From Aphrocallistes beatrix (taxonomy: Eukaryota; Porifera; Hexactinellida; Sceptrulophora; Aphrocallistidae): 64,000 nucleotides of DNA. Below are positions 8,520 to 54,828 of this stretch, piece by piece. The translations under genes and the position numbers were made by a program. Location: NCBI GenBank assembly GCA_963281255.1, contig OY725497.1, positions 3,960,968 through 4,024,967 on the forward strand, read 5' to 3'. The stretch's first letter is position 1. Each line of letters starts with the position of its first letter. Under the pieces are notes generated by a model, which saw only the letters and a program-made list of their open reading frames with translations, made no database searches and was not told the origin of the DNA.

Positions 8520-10280
8520 CTAGTCATCTCTCACGAGAGCAATCAACAGGCGCTTGTAGTCTCCAGAGGTGTCTCCCTTGATCATGGTAGAGAGGGACTT
8601 CTTGTACATCTTCATAAACTCGTTCTTTATCTCAATCATATCAACTTCACACCTGGACACAACTATCCTGATGAGTGCTTCGTCATCAGTTCCTGCCCCC
8701 TTCATACTCCTGTACAGTCGTTCTGCAAAGAAGGAGGGGGGGTTTTGTACGACCTTCACGACAGCCTTCATCCCCATCTTGAGATCGCCCGACATCTCCC
8801 TATCGATTGAGTTCAAAATGTCCCGATGTGCCAGTCTCGCGTAAGCATCAAAGGTTGCTCTGAGCTGAGGGAAACTTCTGAGAGCTAGCACCTGGTTAAA
8901 TCTTGACTCGTCAGTACCCCACCTCTTTTCTCCGGCATCGTGAAGATCCTTCGCTTCTTTCTCAGCTTTCGCCGTATCAACTGTAGTTGTCGTTTCTCGG
9001 ACACCCTGACACAGAGAAACCAACAGCCGCTTAAAGTGTCCGCTGGTCTCCGACATGAGATCCTTCTCCAAGTCTCGGGAGAACAGTGTCCTGTAGCGAG
9101 TCTTCATCTCGTATATCTGTTCATTGGAACTAGCAGTCAGAATCTCTATCAGAGCCTCTTCATCGGTTCCTACCCCTTTCATGGCCCCTCTTAGACTTCT
9201 GCAGAGGTAATCAACTGTTGGATCGAACAAAGCCACCACGCAATCTTCCAAGTTACCACTCAACTCAGATTTGAGGTCACGGACCAGGTCTTTACCAAAC
9301 AGAACTTTGAATTTCGTCTTTATTTCCACTCTCTGTGCGTTGCTTCTATTCGAAATCAAATTAATAATAGCTTTTTCGTCCGTTCCAAGCCCTTTCATTG
9401 CGGTTCTTAACACCTGTGCGTCTGCTTCAGAATCAAAAGGGTGCGCGGGTACAACTGTTCCGTGTGTGGTAGTAGCAGGAGTTGGTGCTACCGGAGTAGC
9501 CCCATAGGGGGCAGCTCCAGGTGGTGCTTGTGCGTGTCCGCCCGCTGGATACCCAGCGGGCTGAGAATAGCCAGGAGTGTTGCCGGCTACTGGGGGTTGA
9601 GCGGGATAGCCGGAGGGCGGGGCAGTCTGAGGGTATCCAGTTTGAGCGGGATAGCTTGGCGCCTGGGCGGTGTATCCAGATGGTGGCGCCTGTGCAGGAT
9701 AACCGGATGCTGGGCCCTGTGCGGGATATCCTGGTGCTCCTGTTTGGGCGGGATATCCTGGTGCTCCCGTTTGGGCGGGATATCCTGGTGCTCCCGTTTG
9801 GGCGGGATATCCTGGTGCTCCTGTTTGGGCGGGATATCCTGGTGCTCCTGTTTGGGCGGGATATCCCGGTGCTCCCGTTTGGGCGGGATATCCTGGTGCT
9901 CCTGTTTGGGCGGGGTATCCAGATGGTTGGGCTGGATAACCTTGAGGGGGGTAGCCTTGAGGCTGGGGAAATCCGCCCATCCCAGGCTGTGGAGGATAAC
10001 CAGCAGTTTGCCCAGGCTGCATATCGGGGGGAAGGTAGCCAGTAGGGCCCGGAGCGGGAGGGTATGCAGGCATTCCAGGAATTCCAGACATTCCAGGAAT
10101 TCCAGACATTCCAGGAATTCCAGACATCCCAGGAATTCCAGACATTCCAGGAATTCCAGACATCCCAGGAATTCCAGGCATTCCGGGTTGTCCCGGAAAC
10201 GCGGAGGGCTGACCGCCGTAGTTCATAGCATATGGATCTTGTCCAGCCGGAGGCTGAGGAGGGCCACCACCGTAAGACAT
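8520..10280 (-). CDS. annexin with long Pro/Gly/Tyr repetitive N-terminus (annexin A7/A11 type)
   Basis: Intronless, 586 residues. The C-terminal ~310 residues hold four annexin repeats with type II Ca2+ sites [22 protein letters not shown] and MKGAGTDD. The N-terminal ~270 residues are low complexity: five or more units of IPGMSG, then about eight units of TGAPGYPAQ, then looser GYPAQ variants, all preceded by [19 protein letters not shown]. This layout is that of annexin A7/A11, whose heads are disordered and in A11 drive condensation onto RNA granules and lysosomes. The core binds acidic phospholipid in a Ca2+-dependent way. The neighbouring gene at 10926-11903 encodes a short-headed annexin with a closely similar core, so the pair is a tandem duplication. 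Confidence 0.95.
9735..9915 (-). repeat. coding minisatellite, 27-bp unit (TGAPGYPAQ)
   Basis: Inside the first annexin, a 27-bp unit encoding nine residues is repeated about seven to eight times with almost only silent T/C changes, for example GGTGCTCC versus GGTGCTCCC. Near-perfect units imply recent expansion, and copy number is probably polymorphic. Confidence 0.9.
10078..10180 (-). repeat. coding minisatellite, 18-bp unit (IPGMSG)
   Basis: Repeated 18-bp units (CCAGGAATTCCAGACATT on the plus strand) encode the IPGMSG array near the N-terminus of the same annexin. Five or more nearly identical units are present. Confidence 0.88.
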
Positions 10281-15700: not shown

Positions 15701-18700
15701 CATTTAAGTTTGCAAAAAGTAGTCAAACTTAATCTACAATAGAGTGCTGATATATGACCATTTTATTTTATTTTATTCCAAATCAAGCCAGCACCCATGT
15801 TCGTATCAGTCAGGTTGGGTTAGTTGGGACGAACTTTACAGAAATCTGTCCGATTCTGTAAAGAAGGCATTTTAAAACCTCGCCGATATACTGACGGCCG
15901 CTCTATAAGTAATCCCATTATGTTATTGCGCGTAATTTAAAATCTCAGTTACATTTCAGATATAAAAAACGTATCTGCTACTGCTAGTTCTACCTAATTT
16001 AGAAAATGATTTCATTATAAATTTAATGAGTGTAAAATATTACAACGGAAATGGAGTTACAAGAATGGAGATATTGTATTGAATATACTGAAATGAACAA
16101 CTAAAAGTAATACAAGTTACTATATCACAAAAGTGAGGCAATAAAAACAACTAGATATGGAGACAAGTTGTTAACAAAGGGGGAAGATGGGATGTGTATG
16201 TGCGTTTACTCAATTGGCAGTCACGGGGCTAATTTCAATTGACTTTGCTGCCTCTACATCCTCAACGGGTTCAGCCTTGGGTGCTTCCCCACTGTCTCCC
16301 GCTACAGCCACTTCTAAGTTCTCTTCCACGGTGTTCCCATTCACACCTTGATATTTTTTGGAGAAGTGCACAAGGAAATTGATGGAGTTGATCCAGTTGT
16401 CCCTCGTAGTCTCGTCAGGAGCTCGCAGTTCTAAATTCTGATTATCAGTGGATATGGTGAGGAGCGTGTTCTTGCTATCTCCCACAGGTTCTACCTTGAC
16501 AACGTCGGTCAGGTTGAGATATCCCCTGGGAGTCTTCATCTTGGGAGATTTGTAGTAGTACAGTTTGAATCCTTCGCCAGCTTGAAAGTATCTGTTGCGC
16601 CATATACCGCGGGTAAAGTTCTTTCGGCCCCGTTTGTGCATCCAACCGTTCAGCTCTACCATCTCCACGAATTTCTGATGCTCAGTATCTCTCACCTTTT
16701 TCTCCTGCTCAATCTCTTCCAGTTGAACTTGAGTAGTTTGTAGATCTTGTTTAGTCACACCCAGCTCCTCTTTAACACTGTTAAGATCCTCTTTCAACTT
16801 ATTCCCTTCCTCTTTCAAAGACTGGTTCTCCTGGTTGCTGGCAGTCAACTGCTGGTTAAGCTGCTTGTTCGCGTCTTCAAGCGTTTTGTAAGCGAGGTCT
16901 TTATCCGAAATCTTCCCGTTAAGATCGTCAACCTGCGCATGCAGCTCCTTAACCTCGGCATCCTGTTCCTCTCGACTCTTCTTCATATCAGCTAGCATGT
17001 GCTCGAGCTCGTTGTTCCGTTTGAATAATGAGGAAATCTGTACTTCGGCCTCTTTCTGCTTGGAAGAGTCAGACTTGCTCCATAGACTTCGTTTCTTTTT
17101 TCTCTTCCCAGACACAATGTCTATACTGCCGTAAGACGAGTCGGATAAATTGCCGGTGTCTTCCCGCATCACGTTATGGGCCTTCGGGCTAGAATCGTTA
17201 ACTTGTTCCGATAAAACGAAGTCTGGATCGATTATGTTTGAAGAAACGTCTTCAGAGATCTTATCGGAATCTCCACTATCTCCTTTCGGGTCGATATTTG
17301 CTTGTGAAGAAGTTGACAACAAACTCTTCCTGAATTTTTTTCCATCCTTCGATTTCTTCTTCTCCAGCTTAGCTATTTTCTTTTGTTCGTTTTTTTCTGC
17401 CTTTTCTTGTTTTTTATTCTCTGCTGCTTCTTTTTTCAGTCTTTCTTTCTCAGCTTTTTGATTTTGTTTAAGTTCCCTTTTGCCAACCTTGACGTCATCA
17501 TTTTCATCGCCTTTTGAAGTCAATCCCAACCAGGTGTCGCACAGTGCTTCAGGATTCTCATTCTCAAGGAGGCTCTCCAACTTTAATTTGTCCATTTTGT
17601 CCACAATGGCGTTTGTTTCCATATTCAGAACAACTAAGATAGGGATCTCCTCCACTTCGAACTTCTCCTTCAGAGCTGGGATGAGCTGAGAATCGTGGGG
17701 AATGATAGGGTAATCTATGCTCGCCGTTGTCACAAATTCCAACATGTCTTTCTCGTTCTGATCACAAGATACCAGAATCATCCCCATGGTGTTGTCGTCT
17801 CGTTGTTCCATCGCTTTTACGCTACCGTCGAATATGTGGAGGTAGTTTTTGGACATTGGGAACCAATTGGCGGCGAAATAAATCCCAATAAACCTCTTCT
17901 CCTTCAACACATCGAAACTAACTTCTTCATTTTCTTTGTTGACGAATTTGGCAGTTCGGTTAATCCATTCTAGATAACCCTCATCCTGGAGCATTCCGAT
18001 TTCAGATATTTCCATTTTGTATTTTTGAATTTGCTCAACAAAGTAAAGAATTATGTAAACAATGAAAAGTAGTCCTTATATATAGTTTATGAGAGAAACC
18101 AGTACCATTGTAGACCTATTGTATATCGACTAGTACGCAAATACATAGAACCACATTGCAATTTTGGAGACAACGAAGTTTTTTTTCTGCTATTCAGAAA
18201 AATCAACGTAGATTTTCAGCTGGTAGACTTTTCTAAACCATAAATATGTGGCCTCAGGTAGCATAATATTAAAAATGCTTCAGCAACAAAATGGTGCATA
18301 GAAACAGTCTGGAAGTCAGGTGGAATAAAATGAATTACTAGACACATACGAATATTAAACATTACCTAGCTGTATTATAAAAGGAAGTTGATTATTCAGG
18401 AATATACGAACTGGCACGAGTCAGTCAGTAGACGAAGTACTCGTATACATAATATCGATATTGCCAGTCTTGATCAGATGATTTACCAAATCTATGAAGT
18501 GACTGATACGAGTAGAGAAAAGTGTGATAGTTAGGTTATTAATAACTGTTAATAATAAAATATATTTGATAAAACTGAAGCAGATGGTGAATATACTAAA
18601 ATAATTGGGTTGACAGACAGTGCAGCGCTAGAGAACATCAACCATAGCGGTTAAAAAATAATAACCTCAAATCTAAATGGAAGAAAAAACACTTGGTTGT

Positions 18701-33678: not shown

Positions 33679-34454
33679 ATTGGACATTGGTATGTACATT
33701 TTTGGTAAATTTAGATTTACATTTTGTTTTCGAGTAGATTGTCATTTGTTGTTACTTGCCATTTATTTATAGAAAAACGCTATATTTTTATTGTGTTTTT
33801 GTTTGTTTGTTTGAAAATGAAGTCATATGATATACATTTTAATACTTTGTTCCTGAGCAAATGAAGTAGATAAAATAGCATGACAACCTTATTGTTCTGG
33901 AATCAATTTTTTTTCACATCCAATCGAAACCATAAGGTAAAGCTGGTAATGTGCAAATATTTTAGTTCAAGTTACGTATATGCCTCAGACTTAGACAGAT
34001 TAATGTTAAATAATTCACAGTTCTTTGCCAATTTTCAACGAATTCGTTGACTCAGGATCATTCCCGTACATCTAGCACAAGTGTTAATGAGCTGAAGTAG
34101 ATCATGCTGCACTACCACACTAATTGGCTTTCACTTGACTCAATTAGAGTTGAGATTTTTAACTAAGGTTGCATATTTGAATCATCCTTGATTTAACCTT
34201 CACATACCAATAATATCAAATTATCCTTGCTATAGATACCAAAATCCCGCCTCGCTATGTTCACTTTAACCCTTTGGTTTAGAGATAGTATGCAAGCGTT
34301 AGGACTATCCTCTCTGCAAGCTATGCTTCCTGAGAAGTATGCAAGCATCCACTGCAGCATACATACATAATGTACATGCATAATATATGTAGTAATTCTG
34401 AACGTTGCTTATAATTCCAATTGAGATATTATTTACATACCTTTGGCACTACAT
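33679..34454. other. intergenic, no feature seen
   Basis: AT-rich spacer holding the NAXE copy 2 3' end and the upstream region of the Ig/FN3 receptor gene. I see no conserved motif. Confidence 0.4.
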
Positions 34455-37400
34455 ATGAATTTCAAGATAAGTTACATATTCATTTTTTACGTTACATGCT
34501 TATGTATTGAGTCAATAGGATCAGTGAGGTTGTTTTTCTACAACAATCTCCCTTATACCCCACAAGAACTGGTTGAAATTGGAACTGGGTCTCTCTTCTA
34601 TGCTGGAGAACTAGACCATGTCCCCGCATTCACATGTACATCTGGCAGCAATAATACAGTGATTTGGTATGACTCAACCGGGAAAGAAGTATCGACTGGA
34701 AATGGGAGTGGAAATGCATTATATTGGACGGGTTTAAGTTGGAATAAAACATTGCATATAACCAACAATACAGGTGGTAGTCTGTTGAACGAACTCAGTG
34801 ACGGAAATAATTTTACATGCCAAGTAAACGAAACGAACGATTCGAAGGTGATAGGTATTTATTACATAAGGTCCCTTCCAGACCCTGAAAACAGCAGTGT
34901 GCCGTTTAATGCCAAGGGGTTTCGTTTGTTCTCCAATGACACACCGCCTACAGTCCATGAATTCACACTTCAGAGAGGTTCTTTCGCGATAGATAGAAAC
35001 ACGATTAGTAAAGTTCAGTCGCTACTACCTGCAAATCTCTCATTCGCACCTGCTCTGACAAATCGAGATTCTCGAACCACCGCTTCGACTATATATAATC
35101 CACAGTTTAACACGAGCTCAATTTGTCAAATTGTGGGCCAAGATTTGTTTGATTACGTCTACATTGGATTCTCAGATCAACCTTTTCTCCTCGCACAAGC
35201 AGATACAATAACTGATTATCCAACATTTCCTGATTCCTATTGCATCCGAAATGGAACAGTAGCGTTTAAGTACCGGATTGGATTGAATTCATCATCCATT
35301 CGGGTGGATTGTCCCTTAGTATTCAACGCACAATTCATTGATATCAATAATTTGAACTTACATATCAACACGAGTCAGAATTCTTTCCAAGCTAGTATTC
35401 AAACCGAAAAGAGGAGACTTTGGATTGATTTCACAGAACAAACCCCAGTAACTTTAAAATTTGACAGAGAGTATGTGTGTGAAGATAAGTATGAGAAGAG
35501 AGTATCATTCCAAGTACACGTGTTAGCTAATGGTCCCATTCAGGTGTATGACAGTGATGACAGCACGAGTGCAGCTCTGAATGATAGTAGCTACGTCCGG
35601 AGTCTGAATGGTATTCCTTCCACACTGTACTGTCTGTCTGGTGACGCTTCCACAGATGTTAAGTGGTACAGAGACACGGGAATGAACAGAAGTGCCTCTC
35701 AGAGTATTGAGTTGATAGATTCGACTGGAGATGTTTATCCCATTGCTCACTCATCAAGAATCGGTCGTAGTGATCTCACACTGAACGGAACCATAGCATC
35801 AGGTAGAGAAGGTTATTACTATTGTGGAGATGGTAAGAACCTGAGTCTTAAATTTGGAATATTCTCACAACCTCCCTTGGCTCCAATAACAACCATCCTT
35901 CCTAACATTTGTAACTTGCAAGTAATAATTGGTGAATATCCTCAGCTTTTGATTTGCGGAAATACAAATGCTCCTCATCCTCCTCCAACTTCTAACTGGA
36001 TCGGTCCTTTGTATGCTGGAAATGCTTACTTATACACAGGCGCACTGCTAGAGGCGAACTCAGGAATATTTACATGTGTGACTTCGAACGTAGTTAGCTC
36101 ATCTACTAGAACTGTATACATCGCAGTGTTCCCACCTCCTCCACGATTAATTGAGTCACATGTAGAAGTTGAAACCATTTTTGTTTCTAATTCATTCCAA
36201 ATATCATGTGAGTTCAGCACATTCATGAATGTAACGCCATGCTTTTCAGTGGACTGGTATCACAATGGTTCACAGTTAAACGCCTCATCAATCAATACGA
36301 CACTATATGAGAACACTCACACTGTAGAGAGCATTCTCTCCGTCCTCTCTCCCTCCCTGTCTCAGTCTGGCTACTACAGCTGTATAGCTAGAGTGGGAGG
36401 GAGTAGCACCACCAATATCACATCCTATGTCCCCATCTATCCAGTCTATCTTCCTGACTCCATCTCACTAACTGTAACTTCTCTAACTCACAAACGAGTT
36501 ACTTTGTCATGGAATGCAACAGCCATGTTATCGCCACTGACTGAATCTTACACAATATTCTACAAACGTTCTGCTGATTCCACTTTCATGAATATTTCGA
36601 GCTTAAACACATCCTTAACAATATATGGTCTCAGTTCCAATACAGAGTATGAAGTATACGTGAATGCGAATAACCAGTTTGGCAGTCGTCGAGGTCCTAG
36701 TCTAGTTTTCCTAACTGAACGTATCCGTCTGTTCTTTACACGGAATGGAGAGGCTGTTCCATTCGTGTCTGGATCTATATTCCGAGGAGGCAATCAGATA
36801 AGAGAGGCTGTAACTGATTTTCACTGTGCACCCGACTCCTCTTCTCAACAGGTAACTTGGTATCAGCCTAATGGTGGTGTTATTCCGTTTGGAGTTTCAT
36901 CAGTTTCCGGACTCCATCACACACTAGACAGCTCCACAGGAGTGAGTACCCTCCACACAATGAACTCTGTGACGCAGGAGAATGAGGGGAACAACTTCAC
37001 TTGCATCATCTCTTCTTCTTCTCTCGTCCTAGGTAGATATCATTTTGGGATTTACCACGCAGAAGCAGAGAGTAGTGAGTTAAATGTTAACGGGGTGAGG
37101 CTGACAGATCCAGATGATCTGATCTACGAGTTTGTGTATCAGAATGGAGTGTTCGACTTTGATTACAGTCGAGTTTACAATGTGGAATGTCTAAGTTTGG
37201 TAGAGATGACTTCATATTGGCATTTTATACCATTTCTCATCTCTTCTACAAACATTTCAACTCTAGATGAGTTGTTGCCTGATGTGAGATTCGATCCTAA
37301 TTCCTTATGTCAGTTAGTCCGTTGTGCTCCTTTCGTGCAATATGCCGTGTTCTCTAACCAGCCATTCCTTTTGAAGACTGATATTGATGTGGATATATTT

Positions 37401-40400
37401 TTTTCTCTAAAATGCATTCCTGACAACACAGTTGAATATACGTTTGAAATAGGTGACAGTTTGGACATCATTATTACATGTCCTCTTGTATTTGATGCCC
37501 GTTTCTTGGATATTTCTCCTAACGAGTTTGCATTGTTGAATACTAGTCTTGCATTAGGAAATCCTCGTAGGTTATGGGTAAACGGGACAATAACCAAAGC
37601 TAAGATCCATCATGACAGAGAGTATGTGTGTGAAGATAAGTATGAGAAGAGGGTATCATTCCGAGTACACGTGTTAGCTAATGGTCCCATTCAGGTGTAT
37701 GACAGTGATGACAGCACGAGTGCAGCTCTGAATGATACTAGCTACGTCCGGAGTCTGAATGGTATTCCTTCCACACTGTACTGTCTGTCTGGTAACGCTT
37801 CCACAGATGTTAAGTGGTACAGAGACACGGGAATGAACAGAAGTGCCTCTCAGAGTATTGAGTTGATAGATTCGACTGGAGATGTTTATCCCATTGCTCG
37901 CTCATCAAGAATCGGTCGTAGTGATCTCACACTGAACGGAACCATAGCATCAGATAGAGAAGGTTATTACTATTGTGGAGATGGTAGCGATATATTTATT
38001 CGAATTGGCTTGTTTCGAAATATTCCTGTAGCACCAATTGCTCAGGTTTATCCGAACACATCTACATTAGAAATCGTGATCGGAGTTTCAGTTCCTATCT
38101 TGATATGCTATGCCAAAAATTTGGCATATCCACCTCCAACCATGTCCTGGACTTTGCATAATTCCGTAATTCTGAATGCTCCAATGCTAGATACTAATGT
38201 GTTGTTGGAAGTGGATTCTGGACTGTACAGCTGCAACACTTATAATATAATCGGATTTTCAACTTACACAGTCAATATAAGCATAGTTCCTCCTCCTCCG
38301 CGAGTGCTTAGCTATCAACTCCTGACTCCAGCGCCTCTCTTCACTGATTCTGCATTCCAAATATCATGTGAGTTCAGCACATTCATGAATGTAACGCCAT
38401 GCTTTTCAGTGGACTGGTATCACAATGGTTCACAGTTAAACGCCTCATCAATCAATACGACACTATATGAGAACACTCACACTGTAGAGAGCATTCTCTC
38501 CGTCCTCTCTCCCTCCCTGTCTCAGTCTGGCTACTACAGCTGTATAGCTAGAGTGGGAGGGAGTAGCACCACCAATATCACATCCTATGTCCCCATCTAT
38601 CCAGTCTATCTTCCTGACTCCATCTCATTAACTGTAACTTCTCTAACTCACAAACGAGTTACTTTGTCATGGAATGCAACAGCCATGTTATCGCCACTGA
38701 CTGAATCTTACACAATATTCTACAAACGTTCTGCTGATTCCACTTTCATGAATATTTCGAGCTTAAACACATCCTTAACAATATACGGTCTCAGTTCCAA
38801 TACAGAGTATGAAGTATACGTGAATGCGAGTAACCAGTTTGGCAGTCGTCGAGGTCCTAGTCTAGTTTTCCTAACTGAACGTATCCGTCTGTTCTTTACA
38901 CGGAATGGAGAGGCTGTTCCATTCGTGTCTGGATCTATATTCCGAGGAGGCAATCAGATAAGAGAGGCTGTAACTGATTTTCACTGTGCACCCGACTCCT
39001 CTTCTCAACAGGTAACTTGGTATCAGCCTAATGGTGGTGTTATTCCGTTTGGAGATTCATCAGTTTCCGGACTCCATCACACCGTAGACAGCTCCACAGG
39101 AGTGAGTACCCTCCACACAATGAACTCTGTGACGCAGGAGAATGAGGGGAACAACTTCACTTGCATCATCTCTTCTTCTTCTCTCGTCCTAGGTAGATAT
39201 CATTTTGGGATTTACCTCGCAGAAGTAGAGAGTAGTGTGTTCAATGTTAACGGGGTGAGGCTGACAGATCCAGATGATCTGATCTACGAGTTTGTGTATC
39301 AGAATGGAGTGTTCGACTTTGATTACAGTCGAGTTTACAATGTGGAATGTCTAAGTTTGGTAGAGATGACTTCCTATTGGCATTTTATACCATCTCTCAT
39401 CTCTTCTACAAACATTTCAACTCTAGATGAGTTGTTGCCTGATGTGAGATTCGATCCTAATTCTTTATGTCAGTTAGTCCGTTGTGCTCCTTTCGTGCAA
39501 TATGCCGTGTTCTCTAACCAGCCATTCCTTTTGAAGACTGCTATTCGTGTGGATATAATTTCTTCTATAGAATGCATTCCTGACAACACAGTTGAATATA
39601 CGTTTGAAATAGGTGACAGTTTGGACATCATTATTACATGTCCTCTTGTATTTGATGCCCGTTTCTTGGATATTTCTCCTAACGAGTTTGCATTGTTGAA
39701 TACTAGTCTTGCATTAGGAAATCCTCGTAGGTTATGGGTAAACGGGACAATAACCAAAGCTAAGATCCATCATGACAGAGAGTATGTGTGTGAAGATAAG
39801 TATGAGAAGAGGGTATCATTCCGAGTACACGTGTTAGCTAATGGTCCCATTCAGGTGTATGACAGTGATGACAGCACGAGTGCAGCTCTGAATGATACTA
39901 GCTACGTCCGGAGTCTGAATGGTATTCCTTCCACACTGTACTGTCTGTCTGGTAACGCTTCCACAGATGTTAAGTGGTACAGAGACACGGGAATGAACAG
40001 AAGTGCCTCTCAGAGTATTGAGTTGATAGATTCGACTGGAGATGTTTATCCCATTGCTCGCTCATCAAGAATCGGTCGTAGTGATCTCACACTGAACGGA
40101 ACCATAGCATCAGATAGAGAAGGTTATTACTATTGTGGAGATGGTAAGAACCTGAGTCTTAAATTTGCAGTATTCTCACAACCTCCCTTACCTCCATCTG
40201 CGTTTATTATCCCCCAAGTTTCTGTTTTATACGTAACAGTCGGTTCCTACACCCCCACTGTCACATGTACGACAGATAACTCTCCTCACCCGCCTCCTAT
40301 CGCTTACTGGCTCAATCAAATTAGTTATAACACTTCGCATCTGAATACTGCTGATTTACTTGAGAATAATTCAGGAGTATTTACCTGTGTTACTTCGAAC

Positions 40401-42207
40401 GTTGTTGGGGAATCTTCAGCCGATATTGTCATACAGGTTATTCCTCCTCCTCCTATCCTCGTTAATCACAGCCTTATCACAGCTCGTCCGATCTATCAAA
40501 ACGATTCTTTTGCAATATTTTGTGAATTTGCTACTTTTCTTAATATAACTTCAAACATCACTGTTTTCTGGTACCAAAATAGCTCTTTACTTCTCAATTC
40601 CTCTTCTACTTCGATAACTGAGTTTAGGAATGTAGGCAGAGTGCGGAGTGTTTTAACAGTTCGGAACTCTGTAGCTTCACAATCTGGCGCTTATACTTGC
40701 AGGTCACACGTTGGTGCAAGTCAAACTTCAAATTCTTCCGCCATATTTCTCATTTTCGATCAAACTCCTCCACCAACTTTAGATTATTTCTTCCTTCAAA
40801 CTTCGGAAACTATTTTCTTCAGAAATCCACTCTCTTTCAGTTGTCAGTTTAGAACCTTTTCAAAGTTCTTGCCTCATCTCGTAATAGAATGGTACCATAA
40901 TGAAACTCTAATTACAACTAGTAAAGATGTTCAAATTGTTGAGTCGTATCGAGTAGAATCCAGTTTGAGTACACTAACCGTCTCAAACTCAAACTATTCC
41001 CATTCAGGAGAATATTACTGTGCTGGGAATATATTGGGCGTCATTGCAAACTCATCAGCCATTTCTGTATCAGTCATTCCATTCGTTACTCTTTCAAATT
41101 CATCGATCGGCTCTCCTCAACAGCGCATCTACATTGAGGAATCCCTCTCACTGTTTTGCGAATTTTTTATCCTACCAAGTCTTGCACCCACTGTCTCAGT
41201 TACTTGGTTCCACAACAGCACACTTCTCAATACCTGCTGTAACTCTGGAATAACGATAAAGACCGATATCAACCAGTCTACAGGACTGGTTCGAGGCATC
41301 TTGGACGTCTCTACAGCTTATAACTGCCATGCAGGAGAGTACTATTGCATTGCTCGATCAAAACATGCGAATTCAACTGATTCAGAGGTCTATCGTGTTG
41401 CGTTTGATCCCAGTAAGTTATTTAATTATCTTTACTCTAACTACTACGTAGTGGTTACTATAATTCTTTCTAGTCCCTTATCAACAAAATATACAGAACC
41501 TGAGCGGTGCCTACAACAACGCACAACAATCCTACTCGGTAGACTGGCTTCTCTCCAATCCTCCAACAGCAGATGAGACCTTCACACTGGAAATAACAGT
41601 CATGACTCCAGACTCCTTCACATCTAGTCGGGGAGAGTTAGGGTGCGATTCAGCTTGTCAAGAATCGAACGCACTCTCTTATCCACTCAATCCTGCGGAG
41701 CCTGATTCGCAGTTCTTGGTGAAAGTGACCGTTACTAATCAATATGGACAATCCTCACAGGTAACTACCTTAAGGACCCGTTCTCTCCCTACAACAACCT
41801 GCTCAGTAACGACAGACATATCTCCTTCAACTGGAACGTCACGCAATGCTGATGAGTTCTCTCTCACTTCCTTATACTTACTAATTCCCATTGTTCTGGT
41901 CATAATGATCTCAGTCATGTGCAACTTGATTCAATGCGTCATGTGTCGCGCATATGCTAAGAAAGAGAGGAGGCGCATTCTCTCCCGCAGTCACGACCAG
42001 TTCGCAAGCGTTGAGATGATAGTGCGGGACACGATGCGAAGGCAGCAAACAGACAACGTGTACAGTAATAACACGGATGATGTCTACATTTCCGGTTCAG
42101 TCGTGTCAGTTGTGGATGACTTTGATACTTACACTCAAGAGTCGGGGTTCATCTATGCGGACGCGCCGGCTAGAGCCTACGACTTCACTGTGACTCATAC
42201 ACTCTGA
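34455..42207 (+). CDS. large Ig/FN3 single-pass receptor with internal duplication
   Basis: Two exons, 34455-41412 and 41474-42207 (donor CCCA|GTAAGT, acceptor TTTCTAG|TCC), give 2,563 residues. A signal peptide (ISYIFIFYVTCLC) is followed by many Ig-like domains (repeated YYYCGDG, GYYSCIAR, NFTCII, GEYYC) and FN3 domains (VTLSWNATAM ... YEVYVNANNQFG). The membrane helix is SLYLLIPIVLVIMISVMC. N-glycosylation sites are very frequent. The tail is ~85 residues with tyrosines in NVYSNN, DVYISG and FIYADA. A block of about 1.8 kb is tandemly duplicated with a 2,160-bp period (36193-37985 and 38353-40145), and a shorter version occurs near 35464-35840. Adhesion, immune or self-recognition are possible roles; no sequence evidence decides between them. 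Confidence 0.88.
36193..40145 (+). repeat. coding tandem duplication, 2,160-bp period
   Basis: Long stretches of 36193-37985 and 38353-40145 are identical. I count 14 amino acid differences and about 5 silent changes. The VCEDKYEKRVSF ... YYYCGDG module also occurs once more at about 35464-35840, so the gene grew by repeated unequal exchange or is being homogenised. Confidence 0.95.
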
Positions 42208-47259: not shown

Positions 47260-50200
47260 ATGGTAGAGGGAGAAAAAGAGGACTTCTACACCTTGGGGGA
47301 TTTTAAAGGCGAGGTAAGAATTCGCCTTGATCGCACTTAAATGGAAAAGATGGCTTTACTTTTAAGTGAATTAGGATTCATTTGATGTTGTCAAGAACAG
47401 ATTCTCGAATGGATTGGAAATTATGAAGTGTATCTACGACTTCTTCTTGGTGAGTTATTTCTTCTAATCATTCATAGTCAGGTTTGATCTGAACATTCCA
47501 TTCTAGCAATTAGCTGGCTTGGAGGAATCGTTCGCACATGGAATGCAGAAACTTCTGAGAAGCGCCTCTTACACCTTACACTCGAATACCCTAATGCAGT
47601 GGTTGGGGCAAGATCCGTATGAAGAGACAGGGTCTGTTGTACTCTGTTCCAATACGGATCAGTTTGTTTTGTATTGAATATTACGTTATTTATGTATATT
47701 TATATATATTACTTAGTTCTTTGAGAGACGCCTGGATGTTAATTGGAGACTGCCTCTCTCTGACTGCCAAACACCATCTCGAAAAGGTTTACGTTATGGA
47801 TAATCAAATTATATTTACAAGCGCGCTTCGCTTGCTTGCGCTGCGCGGCTGGCGGACACAAAGTGTCCGCCGGAGGTGCCCTTCGGGCGCCTGTGGTCAC
47901 CATTGATTAATTATATGGGAGATAACATCTCTAAATACGTCTGCCCTACTGTTATAATCGATATCACACGAAAAATCATCAAAATGATCAATTTTAAAAA
48001 TTTTTGATGAGTAAAGATGACGTCATAACAAAGTAATTAGTCATCATTTTTGATGATAGTTGCATCATATGTGAGGTATATTAGTATACATATTTTATTA
48101 AAATTTCAGCCTTCTATCTCCTCGAATAACTGTATTGCTTAACTTTTAAAAATGTGACAATGACGTCATAATTCCATGATGAGTCGACATTTTGCTCTGA
48201 GCTCAGAACAACGAAAAGACTCCCACATGCAAAAAATCAGCTTTCTGTGCTTGGCAGTTTCTTCAATCAATTCGTTACAGATATAGATATATACAAGCAC
48301 GCTTCGCTTGCTTGCGCTGCGCCTGCGCAGCTTGCGGACACTGTGTGTCCGCAGAGTCGCCCTGCGGGCGCCTGGAATGACTCAATCTAACATATTTAGG
48401 GAATTTTTTCCTTTATATAAATATTGTCAACAAAGGTCAACGAATAATTTCTCAAATGCATCCAAAAATATAATATTCGAAATCTAGAGCACTAAAAACC
48501 CCATGTCAACCGTTGGAAGCTAGTCTCTAGCCCATTTTTGTAGTTTGTTTACTTTATGTATCTATTGTAAACAAAGTTAAACAAATCAATCATCAAATTT
48601 ACTCGCAAATATGATATTCGAAATCTACAACCCTGAAAACCAGATGTCAATCGTTGAAAGCAAGTTTCTAGCATATTTTTGAGATTTGTTTACTTTATGT
48701 ATCTATTGTAAACAAAAGTAAAAAATTGATCATCAAATTTTCTTGAAAATATGATATTCGAAATCTACACCCCTGAAAACCCCATGTCAACCGTTGGAAG
48801 CAAGTCTCTAGCATATTTTCGAGATTTGTTTACTTTATGTATCTATTGTAAACAAAAGTAAACAAATAATTTATCATATCGATCTGAAAATATGATATTC
48901 GAAACCTACACCCCTAAAACCCCATTTCAACCGTTGGAAGCTAGTCTTTAGCATATTTTTGAGATTTGTTTACTTTATGTATCTATTGTAAACAAAAGTA
49001 AACAAATAATTTATCATATTGATCTGAAAATATGATATTCGAAATCTACACTCCTAAAAACCCCATGTCAACCATTGGAAGCTAGTCTCTAGCATAATTT
49101 TCAAAATTCGTCAAATGGTGTTAAAAAAAATACACACAACCTTTTTTATTGCTTATATTGTATAATAATTGTATAATAATTATATAATTATTATATAATA
49201 ATTATATAATAATTATATAATAATTATATAATAATTATATAATTATTATATAATAATTATATAATAATTATATAATTATTATATAATAATTATACAATTA
49301 TTATATAATTATTATATAATGTAATGGAGTAGGACCCTCTGGTAGAGTTCATTCAGCCCCTCCCATCCAGGAAGTGATTGATGCAGGAGGAGGAGAATAC
49401 AATGCAATTGAGAATCACGCACCTAAATTGACTGGGAAGCTCTTCGTATGGTTTGGGAGATTTATGTGGACTCCATTCGGTCAGAAATGGTTACTTAGTA
49501 AAATTATGAAAAAAAACCCGGTTTTGGCTGCTAGAGAGCGTTACATGCCGGAAGCAGCGACCTTCTACCCCACACCTCCATTTGTCCCTTTCCCTGAACA
49601 AACTGGAGGTGATAGAGATGGGGGAGAGGAGAAGAGTAAGGAGGAGGAGATTGATAGTTTGCTGCACTCTGATTCTCATGAAGAGTCAGGAGGAGGAGAG
49701 TTCGTGTTCCCCAGTGTGATGGAGTATCTGCGTGGTTACAGGTGTGGAAGTGTGACACCGGAAGCAGTGGCAGAGCGTATCATTGAGAGTATTGGTGCAT
49801 CCGAGTCCCTGTCTCCTCCTCTCCGCGCCTTTGTCCAGTGGAACGAGTCTGAAATCCGTAAACAGGCTGCAGAGTCGACACGTCGGTATAAGGAGGAGGA
49901 CAACATCCGTCCATTGGAAGGGGTGCCTATTGCTGTGAAGGAACATTTCCTTACCAACCCATATGAACTTCGAATCGGTTGCAATTTTATCCCTACATGT
50001 GCACATAGTTTGGATGGTAGCGATGAGAGTGAATCAGTGTCGATGATGAGGAGAGCAGGCGCTATCATAGTGGGAGTAGCTAACATACATGATAATGGGA
50101 TAGGAGGTACTGGCTCCAACCCTAACCAACTCCATCTAACAGCTCGCAACCCATATGATCTGCACAGGTACCCCGGGGGGAGCAGTAGCGGGTCTGGGTC

Positions 50201-53200
50201 TGCAGTTGCTTCTGGACTTGTACCTCTCGCACTCGGAACTGATGGAGGTGGATCTGTCCGAATTCCAGCCTCCCTCTGCGATTGTTGCGCTGTAGGCTGT
50301 CATTGTTAACAATAACTTATATAGTTGTCTCAATTATATTATAGTGTTTAACAATAAAAAAGGTTATGTGTATATTTTCACACCTTTATATACACATTTT
50401 CACACGATTTGATGAATTTTGAAAATTATGCTAGAGACTAGCTTCCAACGATTCACATGGGGTTTTTAGGGATGTAGATTTCGAATATCATATTTTCAGA
50501 TCGATATGATAAATTATTTGTTTACTTTTGTTTACAATGGATACATATATTAAACAAATCACAAAAATAGGCTAAAGACTAGCTTCCAACGGTTGAAATA
50601 GGGTTTTTAGGGGTGTAGAATTCGAATATCATATTTTCAGATCGATATGGTACAGTCACCTCTCTTATCCGGAACTCAAATTTTGATCACCTCTAAGTTC
50701 CAGGGCCTTATTCACTAAGAAAACTTAAGATTTGCTTAACTTTTGAATCTTCAAAATTAGAAGAGATTTTTAAAGAATTCAAATAGATTGCATACTCTAT
50801 TAATTTTAAGTGGTACAATTGAAATGCTTGACAAAATTTGACTCATTTGTTAAACTTTTCAGAAAACGTAATATTTTAAGTTAAGTATGACGTCATAATA
50901 CTTAAGTATGACATCACGAATATTTCGAGAGTGACTTGGAATATTTCCAGTATTTAGGTAGTTTATATTTCTATTGGTATCATTGAACATCTATTTACCC
51001 AAATCGTAATGCAACTCTTCAAAATTTCCACTATATAAAGTTATATAAAGTTAAGCAAATCTTAAGTTTTCTTAGTGAATAAGGCCCCAGGCACTAGATA
51101 TTGTTTAAACTCACCCATTATACAAATTGACAGTTTTAACACTACAAGCGCGCTTCGCGCTTGCTTGCGCTGCGCGGCTGGCGGACACTTTGTGTCCGCC
51201 GGAGGCTCCCTTCGGTCGCCTGGAGTCACATTGGTTAATTATAAGGGAGATAACATCTCTAAATATGTCTGTCCTACTGTGCTAATCGATATCACTCGAA
51301 AAATCACCAAATTTGTGAATTTTTTTTAAAAATTTTTTTGATGCGTAATGATGACGTCATAACAAAGTGATGAGTCATCATTTTTTGATAATAGTTGCAT
51401 CATATGTGAGGTATGTTAGTACACAGATTCTATTAAAATTTCAGCCTTCTATCTCCTATAATGGCTGAGTTATGCCCGAATAACTGTGTTGCTTAACTTT
51501 TAAAAATGTGACAATGACGTCATAATTCCATGATGAGTCGACATTTTGCTCTGAACTCAGAACTTACTGGAGCCATAGCCAAAAGACTCCCACATGCCAA
51601 AAATCAGCCTTCTGCGCCCGGCAGTTTCTTCAATCAATTCGTTACAGATATATATATATATATATATATATATAATCATCGAGTTTTAATAGTAAGGATA
51701 AACTGCTATTCAAGTTGATTTCTGAGTTATGGGCACCTCTCTTATCCGGGCACCCTCCGGTCCGGCACTGCCCGGATAAGAGAGGTTCGAGTGTATATAT
51801 ATATACACACATTAATCGAGTTTTAATAGTAAGGATTTAGATTATATGATAAATTAACATTGGCGAAACAGCATTTTGGAGTGATACACACCTAGATTGA
51901 ATAAAATATTTAGATTCTTGAAACTGACATAATAATATTCCTTTTATAACTTCATTTATCGTAGTTGCCTCGATCTTCAAATGCTAGCATAAATAGTCTT
52001 ACCTACGACTCTTCATTTTGAGTTTCATTGTAGGCATACCTCTTGAAGCAGTCCGTCGCTGAACCTCTCTCAGAAGCAAAACAAGGATTCGATGATATCA
52101 AAAAGCAGGTGTGCATTGGAGTCGTAGTGTAATGATTTTGCGAATTGCGATGGTAGATCTCTAGTATCTACGTCCCAACGTTTTTGTTACATTTAAAACC
52201 AGAAACATCCACGCTTCATCTCATTCTGGAGTCTTACTACAGAATTATCACTTGTTAATTCCACCGAATGATGTATTTTACTTTTGTAAGCAAAAGATCA
52301 GCAGATCTTTATGTCTATCCTATTAGAATTTGAAAGAAACCAAATTTTCTTCAATTCGAAAACTTCGGAATCAGTTGAAAGCAGTAAGTTGTATATTTAA
52401 TCATTTAAAACTATTTTAAAATTTCGACTCATTTTGAGAAGACAATCTTTTTCCCAGTTTTAATTTAGGCTCAGAATAGGTTCGTATCTAGTATATATAT
52501 AATATTCTCAAAACATTATCAACTCGTTCTTTTGAAGCTTTAAATATGAAATTAGTTTTAAATTATTATGAACTTGAATGAATGAGTCGGAATCCTGCAT
52601 TTATCGGTTAGGAGGAGTTGAAATTGGATGGAATTATCGCAGAGGTCAACAAACTGAACTCACAACCGGACTCAACACGGTAATACATTCGTATCTAACT
52701 ATGCACTCAAATGTGCTTAAGTAGTAGTATAGAATAGTTTAATTCATTGCCTACTATTTCTCTACTTTTTCCAAAGAAAGAACGGGAAATTTGGCAAACA
52801 AAGGTTCTTCTAAGGTTTGTGCAATTTACAACTCCCATATGTGTGGCCGTATTTTAATAATACTGTCCTGTATTTCCAGATTGAAGATCAACTAAAGACA
52901 TTAGATACTCAGATCATGGAACAAAAACAGCTGTTAGTTTTCATCGATTATCATTGTCCTATTCAGAGGTTGCAAGCTCTAAACTTTCTCCCTCAGCTAA
53001 AGTATCTAAATATTTTCTTGTTAGATGCTCAAAGCTGAGTGGAGAGTTTAAATTCGCAGAACGAGGGATGAATCTACAGCTTGAATATACGTATAATGTA
53101 AGTGCTGCAAGTTGTTTGAATAATTTTGGCTACAAATATTTAATATTTCTCTTATAGACAGTACATGATTCAGAGTGTCGTAGAATATCAAGAATTAGAT

Positions 53201-54828
53201 CTTCTCTAATCGAGTTTGCCAAGTAAGTGTATGGCACTAATCCCTAGGATTCTAGCAGAAACTTAATTAATAAGTATATTTTTCTATTTTAAAACTCTGG
53301 AGCTGTACTCTCGGTCGGTCGACCGGCTTTTTCTTCTTAACGGTAGTATTTCAAAAATTCATTTTACGAAGATTAATGGCAGATATCTCGGATGGATTAT
53401 TTGATAACTTTGTTGGTAGAGTCTACTCGAACACTGGTCCCGTATACCTACAATACTGTCAGAAGTTAGCTTTTCGTATGCAGGAGATTGATGCAGATAG
53501 AGACATCCACGAGTTTGTGCTAGCCAATGAAAAATTGATGTTTTCAAAATACCCAAAATTTGAAGATTCAGAGGTATAGAGCACTTTACTGAGAATTCTC
53601 AATGATTGCTATTCTATTCCTGAAATGCTGATAATCTTATTTTGATTAGGAAATGCAATTTGGGAGAGCAGAAAAGAATAGCATCGGAGTAGATTATTCT
53701 CAGTCAATTCGAAAAAATGCTCCTCACCCTTTATCTCGAAAAGGCGATTCACCTGAGAAAGTTGCTAACACCCCAAACATTATTTCCAAGAAGCCATCAC
53801 CACCCAAAACTCTCGACACCACTTCGCCTGTGAAGCAATCTAAGCTCAGCAACACTCCCATTTCACCGATTGATCCTTCTCCTCAGGTGGAAGTTGAATC
53901 AGATATTGCGCCGAAGGTCACTCCTCCGATTATACCAACTAAACATCCAAGGACAGCTGGTAAACTGAAAGAAAAAGAAACTAGAGAGAATACACCAACT
54001 GTTCATATGTCTTCTCAGCATTGCAACGATAAGAATAAGATAGATAATCCAACTGTCCCCACTCCCTACCCAGCTCTACCCATTGTACACAGAGAGAAGA
54101 AAGGCCAGTCAAGCTTAACCGAAAGTTAGTCTAAAATAGATAATAATGTCATATCTACTACTTACCAAGGAACATAATTATAATTATGCTGTATCATGTC
54201 TAGTCGTCTCAATGCAAGAGAAACTTATTCGGATGAGCGAGGCTAACGACTACTACAAGATCATCGGAGGGGGAGCAGATGATGGGTTAGAGCATTTGGA
54301 AGAGCTGCGGCGTAGCATCACGAAGAAATTACATCCAGACCAATTCGCTGGGAAACCTGAACTTCAGCAGAGGTATTCAACACAATAAAATACAACGTGC
54401 TGTGTATTGGTAGATTTGATTTTATGATCATGTCTTCTTAGAGCAACTCAAAAGCTCAGCTACTTGAACACCATATTTACCGACGTTCTTGGGAAAGAAG
54501 AAACACGGAGAATTTACAATATCCTCTGCCAGTACCGTAAGGTAAGGAGCTTCATCTCGTTTATATGTTCACAAAAGCGTGCAATCTCTACTGGACCACA
54601 GCAGTTCGGTACTTTGAGGTGCACTGCGTTTTTTGTTCATTGATATCTATATCTCTGTAGGCATACTCCCAGATAACCTCACAAGATATGAATTCTCTCA
54701 ATGTAGCAATGGATAAGTTCCAAAAAATATATAAATTCTTTAAGAAGCAAGAAGTCCCAATCCAACTCATTCAAGAGGTAGAGATGGCTCTCAAGCTTCT
54801 CAACGCATGTATCAAAAAAGCGGAGTAG
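47260..54828 (+). CDS. F-BAR domain plus C-terminal J-domain fusion protein
   Basis: Sixteen exons stay in frame and give 620 residues: 47260-47313, 47375-47449, 47507-47631, 47717-47786, 52034-52108, 52327-52383, 52612-52679, 52781-52814, 52880-52932, 53025-53097, 53158-53222, 53372-53573, 53650-54124, 54204-54372, 54442-54541, 54661-54828. Residues 1-~315 read as F-BAR: FCH part (RFSNGLEIMKCIYDFF, LAGLEESFAHGMQKLL), GSLRDAWMLIGDCLSLTAKH, SVAEPLSEAKQGFDDI, the helix IEDQLKTLDTQIMEQKQ, and the closing EIDADRDIHEFV. A Pro/Ser/Lys linker (~318-475) follows, then a J-domain (~488-562): NDYYKIIGGG, LHPDQFAG with intact HPD, and KEETRRIYN. F-BAR domains bind and bend membrane; J-domains recruit Hsp70. 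Exons 8-10 use weaker sites and are the least certain part. Intron 4 is 4.2 kb. Confidence 0.82.
47818..48285 (+). repeat. hairpin-headed dispersed repeat, copy B
   Basis: Begins with the GC-rich head AAGCGCGCTTCGCTTGCTTG, contains the palindromes GCGGACACAAAGTGTCCGCC and AGGTGCCCTTCGGGCGCCT, and continues through TGACGTCA motifs to TTCGTTACAGATATAG. It lies in intron 4 of the F-BAR/J gene. Confidence 0.9.
48293..48373 (+). repeat. hairpin-headed dispersed repeat, head only
   Basis: A second head directly after copy B: AAGCACGCTTCGCTTGCTTG, GCGGACACTGTGTGTCCGC, CGCCCTGCGGGCG. The AT-rich body is missing. Confidence 0.88.
48415..49110 (+). repeat. tandem satellite, about 140-bp unit, roughly five copies
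   Basis: Units share TTGTTTACTTTATGTATCTA, TTGTAAACAAA, AATATGATATTCGAAATCTA and CCCCATGTCAACCGTTGGAA, spaced about 140 bp. Inverted copies occur at about 50410-50655 and a single fragment at about 57355-57440. Confidence 0.92.
49150..49322. repeat. AT microsatellite (TATAATAAT-type)
   Basis: About 170 bp of alternating TATAATAATTATATAATTAT-like units, itself strongly palindromic. It ends directly at the FAAH-like fragment. Confidence 0.9.
49323..50309 (+). pseudogene. fatty acid amide hydrolase fragment, no start and truncated end
   Basis: The open frame reads GPSGRVHSAPPIQEVIDAGG, then plant/invertebrate-type FAAH: APKLTGKLFVWFGRFMWTPF, FVQWNESEIRKQAAESTRRY, the amidase-signature catalytic Lys in GVPIAVKEHF, nucleophile region YPGGSSSGSGSAVASG and GTDGGGSVRIPASLC. 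There is no in-frame ATG before the conserved part; the first Met is inside FGRFMWTPF, and the frame opens after a stop in AT-repeat DNA. After PASLC the expected GIVGL-type sequence is present only with an apparent 2-nt loss, then homology ends, so about half the enzyme is missing. A splice acceptor (CCCATCCAG|GAAGTG) is possible at 49370. It lies in intron 4 of the F-BAR/J gene between oppositely oriented satellite copies. Probably a captured fragment. Confidence 0.8.
50410..50655 (-). repeat. inverted satellite copies (about 140-bp unit)
   Basis: Nearly two units of the 48415-49110 satellite in the opposite orientation (GACTAGCTTCCAACGATT, TTCGAATATCATATTTTCAG, TTTACTTTTGTTTACAATGG). Together they flank the FAAH fragment as an inverted pair. 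Confidence 0.9.
50704..51087. mobile_element. MITE with perfect ~37-bp terminal inverted repeats
   Basis: About 384 bp. The ends GGCCTTATTCACTAAGAAAA and its exact complement continue inverted-perfect for at least 37 bp, to the GATTTGCTTAAC block. It is flanked by CCAG on both sides. The GGCC-starting ends resemble those of PIF/Harbinger-type MITEs, but the 4-bp flank does not match their usual 3-bp duplication, so the class is open. Perfect arms mean recent insertion. No coding sequence. Confidence 0.9.
51144..51650 (+). repeat. hairpin-headed dispersed repeat, copy C (best preserved)
   Basis: Head hairpins in order: AAGCGCG-CTT-CGCGCTT, GCGGACAC-TTT-GTGTCCGC, then a GGAGGC/GCCT stem. The body carries TGACGTCA twice (GATGACGTCATAACAAAG and CAATGACGTCATAATTCC) and ATGAGTCATCA. 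It ends ATTCGTTACAGATATA followed by a TA run. Confidence 0.9.
51651..51673. repeat. (TA)n microsatellite
   Basis: A pure TA run directly at the tail of repeat copy C. A TA tail may mark the insertion end of the element. Confidence 0.9.
51731..51792. mobile_element. short inverted-repeat element, CTCTCTTATCCGG ends
   Basis: CACCTCTCTTATCCGGGCA and its complement TGCCCGGATAAGAGAGGTTC enclose about 16 bp. A related terminal sequence, CAGTCACCTCTCTTATCCGG, lies at about 50646-50666, which suggests remnants of a pogo/Tigger-like element. Confidence 0.8.

Follow-up and report, generated by a model that had tools for sequence, protein, structure and literature searches.

A Predicted Sponge Gene Joining a Divergent F-BAR Region to a C-Terminal J-Domain

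Introduction

How F-BAR scaffolds leave membranes is less clear than for clathrin or SNX-1, and not every F-BAR bends membrane. Among PSTPIP1, GAS7, Cdc15, and Imp2, the F-BAR is N-terminal in most and is followed by a linker; in auxilin and GAK, a C-terminal J-domain follows a long linker. Two J-protein systems acting on membranes are better described. Hsp70 strips clathrin through auxilin (PMC4436892). RME-8 carries IWN repeats, and its C-terminus binds the BAR domain of SNX-1 (PMC9642905). SNX-1 over-accumulates and turns over slowly when RME-8 is absent (PMC9642905). SNX-1 was proposed there as both an activator and a substrate of RME-8/Hsc70, and the authors allow other explanations (PMC9642905).

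The DNA analysed here is a stretch of 64,000 nucleotides from the genome of Aphrocallistes beatrix (the window), which contains a predicted gene for a protein with an F-BAR region, a linker, and a J-domain. A literature search combining F-BAR or FCH with J-domain or DnaJ found no described protein of this kind. In the available parts of the papers naming both "F-BAR" and "J-domain", the terms belonged to separate proteins or to reference titles, never to one protein. We know of no F-BAR/J-domain protein, and uncharacterised animal orthologues may well be on deposit.

Results

Gene Structure

The gene was rebuilt by hand from the DNA, and the genome searched with it comprised 100.5 Mb in 28 contigs. 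The model has 16 exons and 15 GT-AG introns with consistent phases, and it is stop-free until position 54828. A preliminary description had placed 16 exons in one frame at this location; the stop-free, all-GT-AG model bears this out, and the F-BAR/linker/J architecture observed there at 47260–54828 was confirmed at the sequence level. The length of 620 residues given in that description has to be revised: the refined protein has 597 aa (exon 12 from 53420), and the unrefined one has 613 aa (exon 12 from 53372). The features of the gene are as follows.

47260..54828, + strand: complete gene model (F-BAR, linker, J), 16 exons, 597 aa
47260..47313, + strand: exon 1, start codon
47396..47449, + strand: exon 2, F-BAR helix 1; Pfam FCH match from aa 19
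47507..47631, + strand: exon 3, F-BAR (LEESFAH)
47717..47786, + strand: exon 4, F-BAR (SLRDAW...AKHHLEK)
47787..52033, + strand: intron 4, 4247 nt, repeats and a FAAH-like gene fragment
52034..52108, + strand: exon 5, F-BAR
52327..52383, + strand: exon 6, F-BAR
52612..52679, + strand: exon 7, F-BAR
52781..52814, + strand: exon 8, inter-helix loop, acceptor uncertain
52880..52932, + strand: exon 9, F-BAR
53025..53097, + strand: exon 10, F-BAR
53158..53222, + strand: exon 11, F-BAR helix 4 (ECRRISRIR)
53420..53573, + strand: exon 12 (refined), F-BAR end (EIDADRDIHEF)
53574..53649, + strand: intron 12, 76 nt, decides between one gene and two
53650..54124, + strand: exon 13, bulk of the Pro/Lys/Ser-rich linker
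54204..54372, + strand: exon 14, linker end, J-domain helices I–II and HPD
54442..54541, + strand: exon 15, J-domain helices III–IV
54661..54828, + strand: exon 16, C-terminal tail (probably helical) and stop

Three other loci were recorded elsewhere in the window. The minus strand at 8523–10280 encodes four Annexin stretches, and a collagen-type stretch early in the frame scored 33.8 bits against a Pfam cut-off of 27.2. An open frame at 16213–18075 on the same strand matches Thioredoxin_8 (thioredoxin-like) and a PH domain, a pairing that seems unusual. The plus strand at 34425–41573 holds an uninterrupted open frame of 2383 codons with Ig and FN3 matches, and a DSCAM-type FN3 model also matches it under its cut-off. 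The Ig/FN3 frame and the collagen/Annexin frame are of a kind that points to an animal genome.

Intron 4 carries an insertion. The plus strand at 49320–50309 duplicates the 5′ half of an amidase gene. This copy is 98% identical at the protein level to its source, a 656-aa open frame about 46 kb downstream on the same contig, which was recognised by eye and which we take to be FAAH-like. The copy sits between inverted repeat arms (48395–49126 and 50397–50649), and the intron 4 repeat shows a 140/141-nt spacing. The repeat family has 74 members among the matches listed, from a first look that gave 2415 candidates, 40 of them scored. The insertion looks like a recent gene-fragment capture and could lower full-length expression. 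An AATAAA lies at 50353, just past the copy. A decaying or truncated gene, whose transcripts end early at this poly(A)-like signal and which leaves an allele without the full protein, would fit the high identity of the fragment and the hexamer right behind it. However, all 16 exons are open and bounded by GT-AG splice sites, and we hold gene decay to be highly improbable.

The F-BAR finishes in exon 12 and the linker begins in exon 13, leaving no domain across intron 12, and the exon 12–13 junction is the one that domain continuity cannot test. Two neighbouring genes would therefore also accommodate this junction: an F-BAR-only protein ending in FEDSEV and a stop at 53579, and a linker/J protein starting from the ATG at 53653, perhaps through an internal promoter or, in an operon, through trans-splicing at the AG that precedes 53650. 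Reading through intron 12 adds a V and then an immediate stop, the ATG stands 3 nt past the intron 12 acceptor, and the donor is weak (GAG/GTATAG). The end of SRP68 and the next open frames also lie on the same strand within about 450 bases. Against two genes, AATAAA, ATTAAA, AGTAAA, and TATAAA are all absent from the plus strand at 51900–54384, so that nothing points to a transcript ending where the F-BAR part meets the J part. Intron 12 (76 nt, GC 0.30) resembles the other short introns, and the splice phase is kept across it. The donor of intron 14, whose removal completes the J-domain, is weak in a similar way (GAG/GTATTC). Two genes are rather unlikely on these grounds, and exons 1–16 probably form a single gene with one predicted transcript.

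F-BAR Region

The F-BAR profile was built from five references excluding the query, namely the PSTPIP-like F-BAR L009 of the same genome and four solved F-BARs. Three right-phase open acceptors of exon 12 retain the whole F-BAR tail (53303, 53372, and 53420). With exon 12 starting at 53420 instead of 53372, the match to the profile reached 46.0 bits, up from 32.4, and the tail was ungapped; 53420 was therefore preferred, having been picked out of the three by the profile score itself. The start at 53372 was displaced because of its lower score and gapped tail, and 53303 was dropped on its score. Two further starts were set aside: 53228 brings stops in frame, and 53501 is open, loses much of the F-BAR tail, and was left unscored. 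For exon 8, the sole right-phase alternative acceptor (52733) introduces a stop. Exons 8–10 had been named as the weakest part of the model; the least certain acceptors are those of exons 8 and 12.

The profile matched residues 20–278 of the refined protein continuously over profile positions 19–259 of 276. The best of 6000 shuffles reached 12.0 bits, a neighbouring coiled-coil frame 1.6 bits, and the reversed domain −2.8 bits; the exon boundaries were set partly to preserve the frame and the F-BAR likeness, a freedom that the shuffled controls did not have. The best of 2000 shuffles scored 8.8 bits in the test of the unrefined 613-aa model. E-values of these scorings, and of those with the own-genome J profile below, refer to one sequence and not to a database.

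FCH was the top Pfam match of the full protein (model positions 7–77 of 78, E 1.8e-4), and its 22.2 bits lie under the gathering cut-off of 27.8. Profile–profile comparison by hhalign gave 86% probability over aa 19–122 of the 613-aa exon 12 model. Searching the PDB with the refined F-BAR alone (E up to 10) returned three matches, all F-BARs (GAS7 twice and Imp2), with a best E of only 0.84. The same search with the full 613-aa model returned no F-BAR among its 11 matches; ten were J-domains, and the remaining one was an outer-membrane protein matching at the linker region. The F-BAR signature reported earlier is upheld by the profile and Pfam scores, and the N-terminal part is a predicted divergent F-BAR.

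Identity to the five references was 14 to 21%. Six residues (E42, E76, H98, E227, R230, and D271) are invariant in the query and the five reference F-BARs, and the helix-4 end motif is present in the register of the F-BAR family in the profile alignment with exon 12 at 53420. Among the 19 columns with K/R in at least four of the five references, nine hold K/R in the query (older exon 12 model), and membrane affinity is therefore not to be assumed. Several of the conserved basic residues are missing; an arginine that is invariant in the five references, for instance, is L in the query. The profile contains the PSTPIP/GAS7/Cdc15/Imp2 branch only, and no subfamily was therefore assigned from it.

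J-Domain and Linker

The J-domain is encoded by exons 14–15 and shows DYYKI, a basic helix II, the HPD, and a segment with KEETRRIYN at its end. The HPD lies between helices II and III, as read directly from the sequence together with the basic helix II: RRSITKKLHPDQ. Pfam DnaJ matched the isolated C-terminus over model positions 1–63 of 63 (20.0 bits, E 7.5e-4, cut-off 27.8) and reached an E of only 0.09 in the full-length protein. The next Pfam match of the isolated C-terminus was DHC_N1 (E 0.0035), which was taken as chance. Since both the FCH and the DnaJ matches fall under the Pfam cut-offs, the F-BAR and the J-domain are called divergent. Genome-wide Pfam searches gave seven FCH matches and 30 DnaJ matches, and the F-BAR/J gene was in neither set; it is therefore strongly divergent.

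A PDB search with the C-terminus (E up to 10) returned 14 matches, all of them J-domains and all weak (best E 0.0077). Eleven are J-domains by name, and the other three are two CbpA chains and 1wjz, which we take to be J-domains. A J profile made from the same genome (26 loci, covering 27 of the 30 DnaJ Pfam matches) gave 19.6 bits for the C-terminus alone and 14.6 bits for the full protein, and the best of 2000 shuffles scored 8.0 bits. This profile excluded three matches (one on C19 and two on C14), two stray HPD frames, and the HSCB locus. The best single match among 27 J-domains of the same genome was L019 (20.8 bits, 28% identity, E 0.2 genome-wide), in which the HPD is followed by F within two residues and which we take to be DNAJC3-like. 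The preliminary description had reported a J-domain with intact HPD. The own-genome profile, the 14 structure matches, and the match of the isolated C-terminus over the whole DnaJ model all agree with it, and the C-terminus is a predicted divergent class C J-domain with its HPD intact.

The linker is Pro/Ser/Lys-rich, about 165 aa long, and probably disordered. The protein has ten [ST]P sites, all inside this linker, which also holds one PxxPxK; the [ST]P sites would suit phospho-control.

Six patterns for clathrin or AP2 binding (clathrin box, PWxxW, DPF/DPW, NPF, FxDxF, and [DS]L[LF]) gave no match in the F-BAR/J protein, and neither PTEN_C2 nor a similar Pfam domain was found in it. The J-domain scored 0.3 bits against L038, the auxilin-like J-domain of the same genome, versus 20.8 bits against the DNAJC3-like L019. 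Thus, of the earlier proposal, the F-BAR/J pairing stands on the profiles, the register, the HPD, and the splice phases, whereas the parallel to auxilin has no specific support. The curved membrane of that proposal is likewise conjectural, with nine of the 19 basic columns kept and not every F-BAR bending membrane. An auxilin-type factor that uncoats clathrin, with an F-BAR in place of the PTEN-like and clathrin-binding parts, would explain the position of the J-domain at the C-terminus behind a long linker, as in auxilin and GAK. The absent motifs, the scores against L038 and L019, and the separate auxilin-like J-domain of this genome make such a factor very unlikely.

The missing clathrin and AP2 motifs would fit another reading, in which the architecture is real and the protein is a dimeric cytoskeletal or cortical scaffold of the PSTPIP/GAS7 kind, with a J-domain that folds a client bound to it or keeps hold of it, and with no curvature generation or uncoating. 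The partly lost basic positions and the linker with its [ST]P sites and PxxPxK are consistent with such a scaffold. So is the PSTPIP/GAS7/Cdc15/Imp2 set as the matching profile, but the profile held that branch alone. We regard this scaffold as unlikely.

Copy Number and Related Genes

The gene is single-copy: 15 of 16 genome matches fell on the gene itself, and one was a weak J-domain elsewhere. The auxilin-like J-domain L038 is encoded separately on C18 (43% over 60 residues). The genome has two PTEN_C2 matches, one on C17 and one on C6, and the C18 sequence is auxilin-like in its J-domain only. One HSCB_C match lies elsewhere in the genome, on C12. A role of the F-BAR/J protein as a stand-in for a missing auxilin was rejected on the presence of the C18 J-domain. 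An HSCB identity was rejected as well, with no HSCB C-terminal domain in the protein and a separate HSCB_C on C12. Given the separate auxilin-like J-domain and HSCB_C, the F-BAR/J gene adds to the standard set and does not replace auxilin.

Relatives were also sought in a viral contig collection (two pattern matches, none confirmed) and in a prokaryote genome collection (25 pattern matches, none confirmed). The collections are viral and prokaryotic, and the absence of relatives in them therefore says little about animals. The other F-BARs of the same genome, L009 and L010, are single long open frames, compared with 16 exons here; by their best structure matches, L009 is PSTPIP-like and L010 srGAP-like.

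Discussion

Our preferred reading, to which we give about an even chance, is that one gene encodes an F-BAR scaffold, a linker, and a C-terminal J-domain, and that Hsp70 is recruited in cis to strip a client. From the observed architecture and domain homology we infer a transcript, a dimer, membrane binding, stimulation of Hsp70, and a client. The F-BAR dimers would assemble on membrane, and the long linker would let the two J-domains of each dimer extend outward. Each J-domain would engage cytosolic Hsp70-ATP, and Hsp70 may then strip a nearby client, which might be the lattice of F-BARs or else a coat or adaptor beside it. The lifetime of the scaffold would be limited in cis, much like the action proposed for RME-8 and Hsc70 in trans on the BAR protein SNX-1. 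We put forward, tentatively and as a doubtful extension, that this could be the first known self-limiting BAR scaffold, in which assembly of a membrane-shaping F-BAR lattice accumulates J-domains and so triggers chaperone action in cis that removes this lattice or its adaptors. If true, such a fusion in nature would point to F-BAR coats, or whatever they hold, as Hsp70 clients, and it would provide one protein for testing both scaffold assembly and chaperone disassembly.

Comparison with Known Systems

The query shares with PSTPIP1, GAS7, Cdc15, and Imp2 an F-BAR in the same register over almost the entire domain. It differs from them in the low identity given above, which includes L009 of its own genome, and in a loop of 15 additional residues ahead of the GSLRDAW stretch. 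Its C-terminus is a J-domain, whereas theirs carry SH3 or other modules. The DNAJC3-like L019 has the nearest J-domain within the genome, at 28% identity; DNAJC3, in contrast, is an ER-resident TPR protein.

Auxilin and GAK offer a likeness in that a J-domain recruits Hsc70 to a membrane coat (PMC4436892). Unlike them, the F-BAR/J protein is without a clathrin-binding motif or a PTEN-like domain. By analogy, RME-8 with SNX-1 is the closest working parallel. SNX-1 is a PX-BAR protein, whereas the query has an F-BAR. RME-8/DNAJC13 and SNX-1 are a J-protein and a BAR protein that cooperate on membranes (PMC9642905). They do so as two proteins in trans, whereas the putative sponge protein would hold both parts in one chain.
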